NCBI RefSeq assembly: GCF_008843145.1
Contig: NZ_CP030265.1
Coordinates: 5,139,001 to 5,203,000, forward strand
DNA from: Skermanella pratensis
GTDB lineage: Bacteria > Pseudomonadota > Alphaproteobacteria > Azospirillales > Azospirillaceae
Direction: 5' to 3'
Length of the DNA: 64,000 nt
The position numbers were made by a program, and so were the translations under genes. This document shows positions 14,767 through 18,950 of this stretch, piece after piece. A model generated the notes under the pieces. That model was not told the DNA's origin, searched no databases, and saw nothing but the letters and a program-made list of their open reading frames with translations. Each line of letters begins with the position of its first letter. Positions within the stretch are counted from its first letter, which is position 1.

Positions 14767-15900
14767 ATGAAGTTCGAGACATTCAAGGCTGGCCATTGGC
14801 AACCCCGCTATCAATATAAGAGCTTCGAACCAGTCCTTGTAAATCACGAATGGACTTGGGAAGATCCCGTTATAAACACGTTGCTGGAAGCAGCCAATCG
14901 GGCGTTGGGCGAGCTGAACGCGTTCTCTCTTATCATTCCCGATATAGATTTATTTATTCAGATGCATGTGGTCAAAGAGGCTCAGACATCAAGCCGAATT
15001 GAGGGAACACAGACGGGGATCGATGAAGCTTTGATGACGGAGGAACAGGTTCTTCCGGAAAAGCGGGACGACTGGCGTGAGGTACACAACTACATCGCCG
15101 CCGTTAATACGGCAATTGCGGAACTTGATGACCTTCCACTTTCAAATCGACTGTTAAAGCAGACTCATACGACTCTCATGCAGGGCGTTCGCGGTGAGCA
15201 TAAGCAGCCTGGAGAGTTTCGCATCAGCCAGAACTGGATTGGAGGATCCGGAGTCAGCGATGCTGTGTTCATTCCTCCACATCCTCAAGAAGTGAATGAA
15301 ATGATGAGCGATTTGGAAAAATTCTGGCACAATGACGCCATCACAGTCCCTCATCTGGTTCGAATTGCAATCAGTCATTATCAATTCGAAACCATCCACC
15401 CTTTTCTCGACGGCAATGGCCGCATTGGTCGTTTGCTAATTCCATTGTATCTTGTTGGCCATGGACTGCTGGCAAAGCCATCGCTTTACCTGTCTGACTT
15501 TTTTGAACGCAACCGTGCCAGCTACTACGACGCCCTAATGCGTGTTAGAGTGTCGAATGATATCATCCATTGGGTACGCTTTTTCCTCAGAGGAGTGGCC
15601 GAAACCGCTACCAAGGGTCGCGACGTATTCCGACAGATACTTGAACTGCGCACGGAAACAGAGCAGTCCATCCTGGGGCTTGGCAAACGTACCCCGAACG
15701 CACGGCAGGCATTGAACCTCCTGTATCGCAAACCGATCATCTCTGCGTCCGATATAGAACGAAGCCTTGAGGTCAGCACGCCGACGGCCAACGTCCTGAT
15801 CCGCGATCTCATACGATTGGGCATTCTTGTCGAGGTGAGCGGGCAGCAAAGGTGGCGGATCTACGCCTTCCATCGTTACCTTAGCCTTTTCGTAAGTTAA
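14767..15900 (+). CDS. Fic-domain protein (class II) with C-terminal winged helix
   Basis: A 377-residue Fic protein, a probable AMP transferase acting on a protein hydroxyl. The N-terminal Fic_N region carries the self-inhibitory motif S-S-R-I-E-G (pattern S/TxxxE-G/N) at about residue 78. The catalytic loop H-P-F-L-D-G-N-G-R-I-G-R is complete near residue 211. The last 80 residues look like a winged helix (A-S-D-I-E-R-S-L-E-V-S-T-P-T-A-N). Codon use is much less GC-biased than in neighbouring genes, and no antitoxin partner is adjacent, consistent with horizontal arrival. The final codons lie in one arm of a perfect 31-bp inverted repeat. The target is unknown. Confidence 0.93.
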   Translation: MKFETFKAGHWQPRYQYKSFEPVLVNHEWTWEDPVINTLLEAANRALGELNAFSLIIPDIDLFIQMHVVKEAQTSSRIEGTQTGIDEALMTEEQVLPEKRDDWREVHNYIAAVNTAIAELDDLPLSNRLLKQTHTTLMQGVRGEHKQPGEFRISQNWIGGSGVSDAVFIPPHPQEVNEMMSDLEKFWHNDAITVPHLVRIAISHYQFETIHPFLDGNGRIGRLLIPLYLVGHGLLAKPSLYLSDFFERNRASYYDALMRVRVSNDIIHWVRFFLRGVAETATKGRDVFRQILELRTETEQSILGLGKRTPNARQALNLLYRKPIISASDIERSLEVSTPTANVLIRDLIRLGILVEVSGQQRWRIYAFHRYLSLFVS

Positions 15901-15941
15901 GGGAAACCCATTTCCCTTAACTTACGAAAAGGCTAAGGTAA
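15876..15941. repeat. Perfect 31-bp inverted repeat with 4-base loop
   Basis: Bases 15876-15906 and 15911-15941 are exact reverse complements around CCCA. The left arm encodes the last residues of the Fic protein (Y-L-S-L-F-V-S) and its stop. The arm is much longer than a normal terminator stem and has no following T-run. It will form a strong RNA hairpin and could act as a bidirectional terminator. Its perfection suggests a recent inverted duplication, perhaps the edge of a transferred segment. Confidence 0.95.
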
Positions 15942-16068: not shown

Positions 16069-17085
16069 TCAGAGCGTCAGCTCCGCGATCTGCACCGCGT
16101 TCAGCGCCGCGCCCTTGAGCAGCTGGTCGCCGCAGAGGAAGAAGTCCAGGCCGTTTTCGCCGAACACCGGGTTGGCGCGGATGCGGCCGACCTCCACGTC
16201 GAACTCGCCGGTCGCGGTCAGCGGCATCGGATAGACGCCGTTGGCCGGATCGTCGACCAGCTTGACGCCGGCGGCCTCGGCCAGCACCGCGCGGGCGGCG
16301 TCGGCGGTCACCGGGCGCAGGGTCTCGATGGTGACGCTCTCGGAATGGGCGCGATACGTGGGGATGCGCACCGCCGTGCAGCTCGCCAGCAGGTCGGGGA
16401 TGCCCAGGATCTTCCGGCTCTCCCACGTCACCTTCATTTCCTCCTTGGTATAGCCGTTGTCCTGGAAGGCGTCGATCTGGGGGATGACGTTGAACGGGAT
16501 CGGATGGCGGAAGAAGCTGTTGGTGACCGGACGCCCGGACAGCTGGTTGCGGGTCTGCTCCTCCAGCTCGGCCATGCCCTCCGCCCCGGCGCCGCTGGTC
16601 GCCTGGTAGGTGGAGACGATCACCCGCTTCAGGCCGAACGCCTGGTGCAGCGGACCCAGCGCCAGCACCAGGATGGCCGTGGTGCAGTTGGGGTTGGCGA
16701 TCAGCCGGCTGGTGCCGAGCGCCCCGGCGTTGATCTCCGGCACGATCAGCGGGATCTCGGGGTCGTAGCGGAAGGCCGAGGAGTTGTCGATCACGACGGC
16801 GCCGGCCGATGCCAGCGTCGGCGCGTGCTCCTTGGCGAAGTCGCCGGATACCGCCATCAGGACAATGTCGTAACCCTTGACCACGTCCGGGTTGAAGGCG
16901 GCCAGCGTCTTCACGCCGAACGGGGTTTCCATCGTGCGGCCGGCGCTGCGCTCCGAGGCGAACAGGCCGAGCTCGGCCACCGGGAAGGCCCGGCGGTGAA
17001 GCACGCTGACCATTTCGCGGCCGACGGCGCCGGTGGCGCCGACGATGGCGACGCGGCGGGGGGAGGAATTCGAAGAGGGGCTCAT
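16069..17085 (-). CDS. asd: Aspartate-semialdehyde dehydrogenase
   Basis: A 338-residue Asd that reduces aspartyl phosphate to aspartate semialdehyde with NADPH, the branch point for lysine/diaminopimelate, threonine and methionine. [11 protein letters not shown] is the nucleotide-binding loop at about residues 12-22. The catalytic cysteine lies in N-P-N-C-T-T near residue 135, and P-F-N-V-I-P and R-I-P-T-Y-R-A-H-S carry the substrate-binding residues and catalytic histidine. Length is normal. The 198 bases upstream of its start hold a Thr-rich leader peptide and hairpins that suggest attenuation. Confidence 0.97.
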
Positions 17086-17147
17086 GTGATCAAGTTCCGT
17101 CCTGTTGCATGCCCGTACTGAGCGCAGGACGAAACCCCGATACGACG

Positions 17148-17174
17148 AGGCCCCGTCCGTGTCCGGCGGGGCCT
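17148..17174 (-). terminator. GC-rich hairpin in the asd leader, candidate attenuator stem
   Basis: Read leftwards, AGGCCCCG and CGGGGCCT form a perfect 8-bp stem with an 11-base loop, 29 bases after the leader-peptide stop and about 60 before the asd start. No clear U-run follows. Upstream, GGTGG in the leader can pair either with CCACC near the Thr codons or with CCACC just before this stem, giving the switch expected in an attenuator. Confidence 0.5.
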
Positions 17175-17202
17175 TCGTGGTGGATGAAGCGTCTCTAACC
17201 GA

Positions 17203-17283
17203 TCAACGCATACCACCGACCGACGGCCCGCCGCAGCGGGTCGTTTTGGGGGTGGTAGTCTTGATGGCGCGCGAACGGTTCAT
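17203..17283 (-). CDS. Thr-rich leader peptide upstream of asd (candidate)
   Basis: A 26-codon open frame on the asd strand starts at ATG 17283 and contains I-K-T-T-T-P-K-T-T, five threonines and two lysines within nine codons. Asd feeds threonine and lysine synthesis, so such a run is what a transcription attenuator would use to sense those charged tRNAs. Hairpin-forming segments follow (see 17148-17174). The ribosome site is weak. A possible promoter (TTTACA, 17 bases, TAACAG at 17319-17291) would start transcription almost at this ATG. Whether it is translated is untested. Confidence 0.5.
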   Translation of the reverse strand: MNRSRAIKTTTPKTTRCGGPSVGGMR

Positions 17284-17333
17284 GGCCGGTCTGTTACCAA
17301 GGCTCCCGCAATTTGTAAAGCGTCCCTTTCGAC

Positions 17334-17870
17334 TCACCCCAGCGGGTATTCCCTCAACGGGTCGTAGACCGGTCCGCCGTTACCCGGCCGGCTCTCGAAC
17401 AGGGTGAAGTGCTCCACCCGGATCGGTCCGGCGCGGAACAGGCCGCGATCCTGGATGAACCGCCCGACCCGCTCCTGCGGCGCGTCGCGCAGGCGGGCCA
17501 GGGTCACGTGCGGGCTGAAGCGCCGCTCCTCGCGCGGCAGCCCGGCGCGGACCAGTGCCGATTCCACCTTCTGGTTCAGGTGGACAAGGGCGTCGTTGCG
17601 CTCCACCCCGGCCCACAGGACGCGCGACCGGCTGCCGCTGCCGAACTGCCCGACCCCGTCCAGGACGAGGTCGAAGGCCGGGGCCGAGACGCTGCCCAGC
17701 GCCGCGTCGATGTCGGGCAGCAGGCCGTTCTCCACCTCGCCGACGAAACGCACCGTCAGGTGCAGGTTCTCCGGCTCGGTCCAGCGGGCGCCGGGCACGC
17801 CGCCACCCAGGCCGACCAGACGCTCGCGGACGGCTTCGGGCAGTTCAAGGGCGACGAACAGACGGATCAT
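17334..17870 (-). CDS. thpR: RNA 2',3'-cyclic phosphodiesterase
   Basis: A 178-residue 2H phosphoesterase of the LigT/ThpR family. The two catalytic HxTx motifs are H-L-T-V-R-F-V-G at about residue 37 and H-V-T-L-A-R-L near 120. M-I-R-L-F-V-A-L-E-L-P is the usual family start. The enzyme opens 2',3'-cyclic phosphates on RNA ends. It lies upstream of the asd leader on the same strand but is separated by the leader region, so cotranscription is uncertain. Confidence 0.92.
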   Translation of the reverse strand: MIRLFVALELPEAVRERLVGLGGGVPGARWTEPENLHLTVRFVGEVENGLLPDIDAALGSVSAPAFDLVLDGVGQFGSGSRSRVLWAGVERNDALVHLNQKVESALVRAGLPREERRFSPHVTLARLRDAPQERVGRFIQDRGLFRAGPIRVEHFTLFESRPGNGGPVYDPLREYPLG

Positions 17871-17906
17871 GGCAACGTGTCGTAAGTGTCAGGCGCAGGA
17901 TCGGGA

Positions 17907-18950
17907 TCAGGGACAGGGATTCGGGAACCGGGCGTTGACCTCCTCGATCTCCTTCAACACCGCGTCGGTCAAGGTGATCCCGATCGAATCGATGTTCGTC
18001 TTAAGGTGCTCCATCGACGTGGCGCCGATGATGTTCGACGTCACGAAAGGCTGCCGGGTGACGAAGGCCAGCGCCATCTGCGCCGGGTCCAGCCCATGGC
18101 GCTTCGCCACGTCCTGATAGGCCCGCACCGCCGCGTCGGCGTTCACCGTGTCGTAGCGCGACTTGCGGTGGTCCAGCGCGCGGCGGGTCCCCGGCGGGAT
18201 CCGGCCGTCCAGGTACTTGCCGGTCAGCGTCGCCGCCGCCAGCGGCGAATAGGCCAGCAGCCCGCACCGCTCGCGGATCGAGACCTCGGCCAAGCCGTCC
18301 TCGTAGGTCCGGTTCAGCAGGTTGTAAGCGTTCTGGACGCTGACCACCCGGGGCAGTCCCAGCTCGTCGGCCAGCCGCAGGAACGCCATGGTGCCCCAGG
18401 GCGTCTCGTTGGACAGGCCGACATGGCGGATCTTGCCCGAGCGGACCAGCTCGTCCAGCGCCCGCAGGGTCTCCTCGATCGGGGTAGCACCCTCGTCGTC
18501 GCCGTCCTTCCAGCCACGGGCGCCGAAGCGGGCGGTGGTCCGGTCGGGCCAGTGGAGCTGGTACAGGTCGATATAGTCGGTGCGCAGCCGGGTCAGGCTG
18601 TCCTCGACCGCGCGCACCAGGTTTTCCCGGTCCAGCCGGGCCTTGCCCCCGCGGACCCAGCCGAAGCCGCCGGGCGCGCGGCCGATCGCCTTGCTCGCCA
18701 GCACGACCTTGTCGCGCCCGCCCCGGCTGGCGAACCATGAGCCGATGATCCGCTCGGTCGAGCCGTGGCTCTCCTCGATCGGCGGGATCGCGTACATTTC
18801 CGCCGTGTCCCAGAAATTGACGCCGCGCTCCAGCGCGTAGTCCATCTGTGCATGGCCCTCGGCCTCGGTGTTCTGGCGGCCCCAGGTCATCGTGCCCAGG
18901 CAGATCGCGCTGACCTGCACGTCGGTGCGGCCCAAAGGACGGTATTCCAT
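17907..18950 (-). CDS. Aldo/keto reductase, Tas-like
   Basis: A 347-residue NADPH-dependent aldo/keto reductase beginning M-E-Y-R-P-L-G-R-T-D-V. The tetrad is visible as D-T-A-E-M-Y (Asp and Tyr), the Lys in L-A-S-K-A-I-G, and the His in L-Y-Q-L-H-W-P-D-R. The long loop after the His (F-G-A-R-G-W) and the C-terminal N-I-I-G-A-T-S segment resemble E. coli Tas. Its substrate is not evident. It is followed 36 bases later by thpR on the same strand. Confidence 0.92.
   Translation of the reverse strand: MEYRPLGRTDVQVSAICLGTMTWGRQNTEAEGHAQMDYALERGVNFWDTAEMYAIPPIEESHGSTERIIGSWFASRGGRDKVVLASKAIGRAPGGFGWVRGGKARLDRENLVRAVEDSLTRLRTDYIDLYQLHWPDRTTARFGARGWKDGDDEGATPIEETLRALDELVRSGKIRHVGLSNETPWGTMAFLRLADELGLPRVVSVQNAYNLLNRTYEDGLAEVSIRERCGLLAYSPLAAATLTGKYLDGRIPPGTRRALDHRKSRYDTVNADAAVRAYQDVAKRHGLDPAQMALAFVTRQPFVTSNIIGATSMEHLKTNIDSIGITLTDAVLKEIEEVNARFPNPCP

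Follow-up and report, generated by a model that had tools for sequence, protein, structure and literature searches.

The asd locus and its leader region

The asd gene analysed here lies on the minus strand of the window (the whole stretch of 64,000 nucleotides that was analysed). It is preceded by a short open reading frame, a set of predicted RNA helices and promoter-like boxes (Table 1). A preliminary description of this DNA pointed to a 26-codon frame in which a stretch of nine codons includes five for Thr and two for Lys, and this is exact at positions 17283–17203 of the minus strand, where leader codons 8–16 encode K T T T P K T T R. The segments said to pair in two ways are present as well, with positions 17231–17225 common to both pairings. 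The GC stem also stands, but it consists of ten pairs and one bulged A instead of 8 bp. The element exceeds the interval 17140–17320 first given for it, extending from the −35 box starting at 17319 to the end, at 17089, of a predicted hairpin that masks the asd Shine-Dalgarno (SD) sequence.

Table 1. Features of the asd leader region, with positions in the window.
Feature	Position	Strand	Remarks
RNA 2′,3′-cyclic phosphodiesterase gene	17870–17334	(−)	upstream neighbour of the leader
−35 box TTTACA	17314..17319	(−)	TTTACA or TTCACA 29–33 nt 5′ of the leader ATG in 53/54 loci (47/48 genomes)
−10 box TAACAG	17291..17296	(−)	3/6 matches to TATAAT; 17-nt spacer; ends 7 nt 5′ of the leader ATG
Leader ORF MNRSRAIKTTTPKTTRCGGPSVGGMR	17203..17283	(−)	26 codons + stop; kept in 48/48 genomes
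Putative regulatory Thr/Lys codons 8–15 of the leader ORF	17262–17239	(−)	
Hairpin 1 (proposed OFF state)	17223..17244	(−)	17244–17236 with 17231–17223; 97.2% of cells paired, 22 sequences
Antiterminator 2:3 (proposed ON state)	17165..17232	(−)	17232–17225/17173–17165; 17217–17213/17183–17179; inner 17209–17205/17193–17189; 94.4% of cells paired, 22 sequences
GC hairpin 3:4 (terminator-like)	17149..17173	(−)	17173–17163 with 17159–17149; −21.2 kcal/mol
Hairpin 5:6 over the asd SD region AGGACGGA	17089..17141	(−)	17141–17125 with 17104–17089; predicted
asd, aspartate-semialdehyde dehydrogenase	16069..17085	(−)	338 aa; passes the TIGR01296 and PRK14874 cut-offs

The folding of the 205 nt leader beats 199 of 200 shuffles (z = −3.27). 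The density of Thr codons is also above chance, as antisense-strand small open reading frames (sORFs) in 141 other asd-upstream regions show no more than 3 Thr per nine codons. The genome carries two asd genes, which share 45% identity over most of their length. A plus-strand open reading frame (14767–15900) ends in an inverted repeat of 31 bp without mismatches, the arms of which enclose a loop of 4 nt (15876–15941).

With standard promoter spacing, the transcript would begin at the leader ATG or no more than about 4 nt from it. The geometry of the −35 and −10 boxes therefore points to a start at or near the ATG, and the leader ORF is likely to be leaderless. Among the 54 loci compared, which consist of 48 genomes and six named loci with leaders duplicating six of the 48, only L148 is without the −35 box. 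Predicted anti-SD pairing is weaker before the leader ATG than before asd in all 11 representatives. In several Azospirillum loci, e.g. L003 and L134, the −35 box is flanked by a palindrome that spans roughly nt −60 to −25 relative to the leader ATG. By eye, its arms differ between loci but match each other (GAATGCGCAGG / CCTGCGCATTC in L003), and it may represent a terminator of the upstream gene or an operator.

Conservation of the leader and of its alternative helices

The window's asd has close orthologues in 4 of 5 genomes of its own genus and, in the genus of G014, in 44 of 45; the one other genome of each genus lacks a close orthologue. The genus of G014 is taken as Azospirillum because six named Azospirillum loci share leaders identical to loci of that genus. 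A Thr-rich leader is present ahead of the asd orthologue in all 48 genomes at a distance of 194–216 nt from asd, with the leader ATG slightly further up in three of the 48. Thus the conservation of the Thr run in relatives, which the preliminary description put forward as a check, is seen in all 48 of these orthologues.

There are 39 distinct leader sequences among the 48 genomes. They contain 4–8 Thr and 1–4 Lys, and their length is nearly constant at 25–29 codons. One Thr and one Lys position adjoining the pairing segment are invariant (48/48). The Thr codons drift synonymously among ACC, ACT and ACG with the reading frame kept; L146 carries a whole extra codon within the Thr run, and in the L083 leader (genome G001) the number of Thr is down to 4 and the stop is shifted. 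No such leader is found before the asd orthologues of Arenibaculum (L007, L091) and of L092. Within the window's own genome, nine-codon stretches before other genes hold at most 1 Thr for hom, 2 for thrC and 1 for the second asd (L082). The gene upstream of the leader is a phosphodiesterase in the window and a member of the glycogen phosphorylase family in A. brasilense L001, while the kind of leader stays the same; thus the leader travels with asd. Genes for asd 61–67% identical to that of the window are also present in L016, L018 and L020, on contigs labelled Methanococcoides and Patescibacteria, which may reflect transfer or binning errors.

Two partners are open to the segment GGCGGGCC: pairing with upstream sequence gives hairpin 1, and pairing with the 5′ arm of the GC stem gives the antiterminator. 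The two helices are mutually exclusive, as columns 56–60 and 62 of alignment A1 are paired in both structures. An unguided RNAalifold prediction with 22 sequences recovers hairpin 1, the distal antiterminator helix and the GC stem, with changes on both sides in 4 of 35 pairs. In these sequences hairpin 1 displays 8 cells changed on both sides and the antiterminator 18; one antiterminator pair is GC in 10 sequences, CG in 8, UG in 1 and unpaired in 3. For both helices, the cells paired, the cells changed on both sides and the covariation score exceed those of all 500 shuffles and of every slid control. The switchable stems thus covary, which was the second check proposed at the outset. The number of pairs changed on both sides is only 2 per helix; for the antiterminator 369 of 500 shuffles reach this value, and 86 of 500 do so in the case of hairpin 1. 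Further pair types do not rise above shuffles either (reached by 500/500 and 86/500, respectively).

Pairing between segments 2 and 3 is stronger than with a dinucleotide-shuffled segment 2 in 11 of 11 representatives, the fraction of shuffles at least as strong being 0.001–0.040. In a cross-species duplex permutation with 11 and 14 representatives, the 2:3 pairing is not significant (p = 0.15 and 0.13) and 1:2 is marginal (p = 0.16 and 0.03), with lower values for the 3:4 flank (p = 0.024 and 0.019) and 5:6 (p = 0.023 and 0.004). When wider segments are used (11 representatives), p = 0.063 for 5:6, 0.094 for 1:2 and 0.070 for 2:3, and 3:4 is uninformative. The column-based counts for 2:3 are thus stronger than the cross-species duplex tests.

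Folding with a ribosome placed on the third Thr codon gives an antiterminator probability above 0.5 in 54/54 loci. With the ribosome at the stop codon the antiterminator is found in 0/54, segment 2 being covered by construction. Folding without a ribosome predicts the antiterminator in 29/54 loci, with a value of 0.00 in the window, and an untranslated leader would therefore not be uniformly OFF. In all three settings the RNA is taken before segment 4 emerges.

Related leaders before thrS, dapA and other asd genes

Two covariance models, R1 from asd leaders and the broader R2, give matches outside the asd orthologues. R1 matches at least 19 of 59 relatives (E = 0.01) and at least 14 of 190 class genomes (E = 0.001). 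R2 matches at least 17 of 39 (E = 0.02) and at least 38 of 385 genomes drawn from a larger class set (E = 0.0001). All four counts are lower bounds, because in each genome scoring covered only a fraction of the first-look candidates. R2 matches nothing but the asd leader in the genome of the window. Forty-two further loci were examined (L286–L328 minus the duplicate L320), and 18 more matches lie outside this count. The scaffold is situated before a short thrS in 15 loci, a full-length thrS in 1, asd in 9, dapA in 2 and GNAT acetyltransferases in 5 (L294, L299, L300, L302, L310). The remaining 10 are weak or carry no assigned gene; L307, L308, L311 and L312 show no convincing leader. At L287 and L292 the scaffold is found 200–300 nt before an aminoglycoside-acetyltransferase-family gene and an ABC transporter gene.

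The short thrS loci (L286, L291, L295, L301, L303, L313–L315, L321, L322 and L324–L328) each display a putative Thr-rich attenuator; 14 are called by TIGR00418 on the open reading frame and L327 by position. The short threonyl-tRNA synthetase has about 400 aa and matches the profile only from position 161–171 of 565 onward. A full-length thrS is present in addition in 12 of 12 searched short-thrS genomes (of 15), and is in pieces in G364. Among 16 regions upstream of full-length thrS from 15 genomes, G364 excluded, the element is found only in Azospirillum (G014, L309). The only thrS over the cut-off in the window's genome (G000:C1:5263463-5265144) shows profile pieces 1–37 and 39–564 that look out of frame, possibly from a frameshift or assembly error near the start.

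The leaders differ in their codons according to the gene that follows. Short-thrS leaders contain 3–8 Thr in nine codons and 0–2 Lys, the nine other asd scaffold leaders 2–7 Thr (only 2 in L288) and 2–5 Lys, and the two dapA leaders 1 Thr and 2 Lys each. Lys is more frequent in the asd (9) than in the thrS (16) leaders (one-sided Mann-Whitney p = 2.4e-5; p = 1.9e-4 with obvious sister pairs merged, shared ancestry being otherwise uncorrected). Nine of the 18 pairs of the A3 structure (25 sequences) are changed on both sides, more than in any of 500 shuffles, though this alignment was adjusted to its structure and is biased towards it. Of the 42 loci, 34 have a loose −35 motif 29–33 nt 5′ of the leader ATG, but the starts were chosen with a preference for this spacing. 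Most leaders of the acetyltransferase and transporter genes show no enrichment in any single amino acid, as would be expected from a general sensing of stalled translation.

These loci may thus represent a modular leaderless attenuator cassette across the Alphaproteobacteria, a reading to which we give an even chance. One scaffold with interchangeable sensor codons would then serve a Thr/Lys regulon, with Thr and Lys codons before asd, Thr codons before an inducible second threonyl-tRNA synthetase without the editing domain, and Lys codons before dapA. It would perhaps act as a general stall sensor before acetyltransferase and transporter genes, and in the window's lineage be supplemented by a lock on the asd ribosome-binding site.

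Leaders rich in Thr and Lys are also found before asd genes elsewhere. The 141 other asd-upstream regions consist of 10 named loci, sets of 22 and 29 loci and 80 stretches, with a few genes present twice. Eight of them (L102, L166, L175, L176, L193, L199, L256 and L258, with seven family labels) contain a Thr/Lys leader with a score of 7–9, where other sense regions reach at most 4 and antisense at most 5; L173, for example, has no leader. The terminator score (the d'Aubenton Carafa formula, designed for E. coli) is positive for L175, L176, L199 and L166 and negative for L102, L193 and L256. In the Rhizobiaceae loci L267, L268, L269 and L272, sequence after the leader stop (GTCTCT, GCTCTCTCC) is complementary to the asd SD region. 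This could form a translational attenuator, however the predicted opening energies do not bear it out.

Eleven records of a plasmid collection carry asd at 60–80% identity, and the upstream sequence was examined in 7. Leaders ending in KTTTKTV precede asd in S. meliloti, a Sinorhizobium sp., Shinella and a Rhizobium sp. No Thr/Lys leader is found before asd in the records of Ruegeria, Methylobacterium bullatum and Sphingomonas parapaucimobilis, or before two less closely related asd copies on accessory plasmids of S. meliloti. In S. meliloti CP090106.1, an sORF ending in KTTAKTTTKTV is situated before an annotated aspartate-semialdehyde dehydrogenase gene and fits the description of SEP5. As given in the accessible text of PMC10117765, SEP5 is a translated sORF of S. 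meliloti with six Thr and three Lys codons near its 3′ end. It is proposed there as the leader peptide of an "aspartate dehydrogenase" gene and is said to be conserved only in Sinorhizobium. With the CP090106.1 sORF matched to SEP5 by description, the target gene of SEP5 is most likely asd. Thus the preliminary description, which knew of no such leader ahead of asd in this group, needs a slight correction, since SEP5 appears to have been suggested already (PMC10117765). SEP5 is the only asd-linked leader peptide found in the literature covered, with subscription journals mostly outside its scope, and priority is uncertain.

Output step, proposed mechanism and comparison with known systems

The tail that follows the GC stem in the window (TCGTCGTATC) is a weak U-tract, and the terminator score by the E. 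coli formula is −10.6. By the same formula five of 11 representatives are above zero and six below. The U-tracts of the 48 asd loci have a mean of 3.21 T in 8 nt. Two other asd scaffold members show 1 (L297) and 0 (L305), and the U-rich tails of the 15 short-thrS loci a mean of 5.67. Most scaffold relatives have better U-tracts than the window. A generic terminator scan over 10 kb yields no excess of U-tract terminators (3 found, 5.2 expected), and the scan is therefore unable to calibrate the weak U-tract of the window.

In 14 of the 16 sequences folded, the asd SD is predicted to be largely paired (mean of at least 0.5), and the hairpin partners that cover it change between species. The poor U-tract of the window combined with a hairpin masking the SD suggests that plain termination may not be the whole story. 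The stall could instead alter access to the asd ribosome-binding site, with the SD hairpin as the real output. We consider such translational attenuation unlikely, though it deserves weight, as the weak U-tract and the paired SD both agree with it. The better pairing of 5:6 within its own species than across species (p values above) points the same way, as does the possible pairing between the SD region and the sequence that follows the leader stop in the Rhizobiaceae asd leaders. A free segment 4 also eases the predicted opening of the SD in the A. brasilense group, e.g. from 9.8 to 2.5 kcal/mol in L087. However a lowering of more than 1 kcal/mol is found in only 4 of 16 sequences, and in the window the predicted opening cost is 12.0 and 11.0 kcal/mol with segment 4 free or not, so that the SD is predicted to stay closed. 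SD access shows no consistent change between stalled and finished ribosomes in the 16 leaders or in 12 other loci. Stability of the SD hairpin beyond shuffles (z of −2 or lower) is seen in 7 of 16 sequences, with z above −2 in the other 9, and L131 appears to have lost the hairpin. The better U-tracts of most scaffold relatives also argue against it. Because no response of the SD hairpin to ribosome position could be shown, transcription attenuation is favoured for the family, with a possible translational component.

The motif GGACGG, shared by segment 4 and the asd SD, suggested a cascade of 1:2/3:4/5:6 alternating with 2:3/4:5, which would free the SD. This was dropped as a general mechanism, as only 4 of 16 sequences fit when folded with and without segment 4 (L087, L112 and L121 of the A. 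brasilense group, and L129).

The sORF could also encode a small protein with a function of its own, with the RNA structures incidental. The nearly constant leader length would agree with this, and the trp leader peptide of S. meliloti is described as acting in trans (PMC7298713, accessible text). But the C-terminal half of the leader tracks the RNA pairing segments, and among the scaffold relatives the RNA form is kept although the peptide is for the most part different, which makes this explanation quite improbable. That the Thr run arose by chance in a GC-rich spacer, with nothing in its favour beyond generic GC-rich folding, is already refuted by the 48/48 conservation, with the antisense controls and the covariation also against it, and has a negligible probability.

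The element in the window is thus, with good confidence, a ribosome-mediated attenuator that senses threonine and probably also lysine. Computation gives a conserved ORF, its Thr and Lys codons, mutually exclusive covarying helices and the promoter geometry; from these we infer stalling, termination and the direction of the response. Ribosome-mediated attenuation through the Thr codons is very likely. Sensing of Lys is likely, and is supported by the invariant Lys codon (48/48) and by the higher Lys content of the nine other asd leaders on the same scaffold compared with the 16 thrS leaders. The control of asd by Thr and Lys codons that the preliminary description envisaged thus gains support from the conserved Thr run and the covarying stems. 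Transcription would start at or beside the leader ATG, and the first ribosome would load on the 5′ end. With charged Thr- and Lys-tRNA, the ribosome would reach the stop codon and cover segment 2, the GC hairpin 3:4 would form and asd expression would be low. With uncharged tRNAs, it would stall on the Thr/Lys run and leave segment 2 free to pair with segment 3; the GC hairpin would then not form and asd would be on. The hairpin over the asd SD may be a further lock. The switch belongs to a scaffold that occurs elsewhere in the Alphaproteobacteria, with different sensor codons, ahead of thrS, dapA and further genes.

The Thr_leader of gammaproteobacterial thrABC (RF00506) consists of a Thr-rich leader peptide and alternative hairpins, with Ile as the second residue. 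The window element shares the Thr-rich leader peptide and the alternative hairpins, but its target is asd and Lys replaces Ile. A search of window positions 16500–18000 against Rfam with E up to 10 shows no Thr_leader (RF00506), T-box, lysine riboswitch or other cis-regulator; it yields three sub-threshold chance matches to unrelated families. Synthetase genes under comparable control are B. subtilis thrZ, with a T-box that senses tRNA directly, and E. coli pheST, with an attenuator and a Phe leader. The short-thrS relatives would resemble both in that a synthetase gene is proposed to be induced by lack of charged tRNA, and differ by their Thr-rich leader ORF. A 2004 survey of proteobacterial attenuators by Vitreschak reportedly lists threonine attenuators in its abstract, not asd.

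SEP5 resembles the window leader as a Thr/Lys-rich sORF in the 5′ UTR of a probable alphaproteobacterial asd (PMC10117765). However it belongs to a different asd paralogue and a different RNA, its Thr/Lys codons lie directly before the stop, and the accessible text of PMC10117765 describes no structural switch. Conservation only in Sinorhizobium, as stated in that text, contrasts with the Thr/Lys tail found here in a Shinella and a Rhizobium record as well. S. meliloti trpL, by the accessible text of PMC7298713, is a ribosome-dependent transcription attenuator with a leaderless leader ORF; both trpL and SEP5 (the latter in PMC10117765) are reported to be translated. The window element is likewise an alphaproteobacterial attenuator by prediction, with a putatively leaderless leader ORF, but it combines Thr/Lys codons with asd where trpL combines Trp codons with trpE. 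The principle is thus known. What seems new is the gene controlled, the sensing of two residues and the arrangement of the promoter, and most of all that asd and thrS share one scaffold.

Lys, Thr, Met and Ile all depend on the product of asd as their branch-point enzyme. A leader that senses Thr and Lys would, if true, be a compact means by which two end products set the flux. With the scaffold also ahead of a second threonyl-tRNA synthetase, Thr synthesis and Thr charging would be coupled. The scaffold family is a natural experiment in which the same RNA carries different sensor codons, and the element offers a tractable case of attenuation from a probably leaderless ORF in Azospirillum, a plant-growth-promoting genus.
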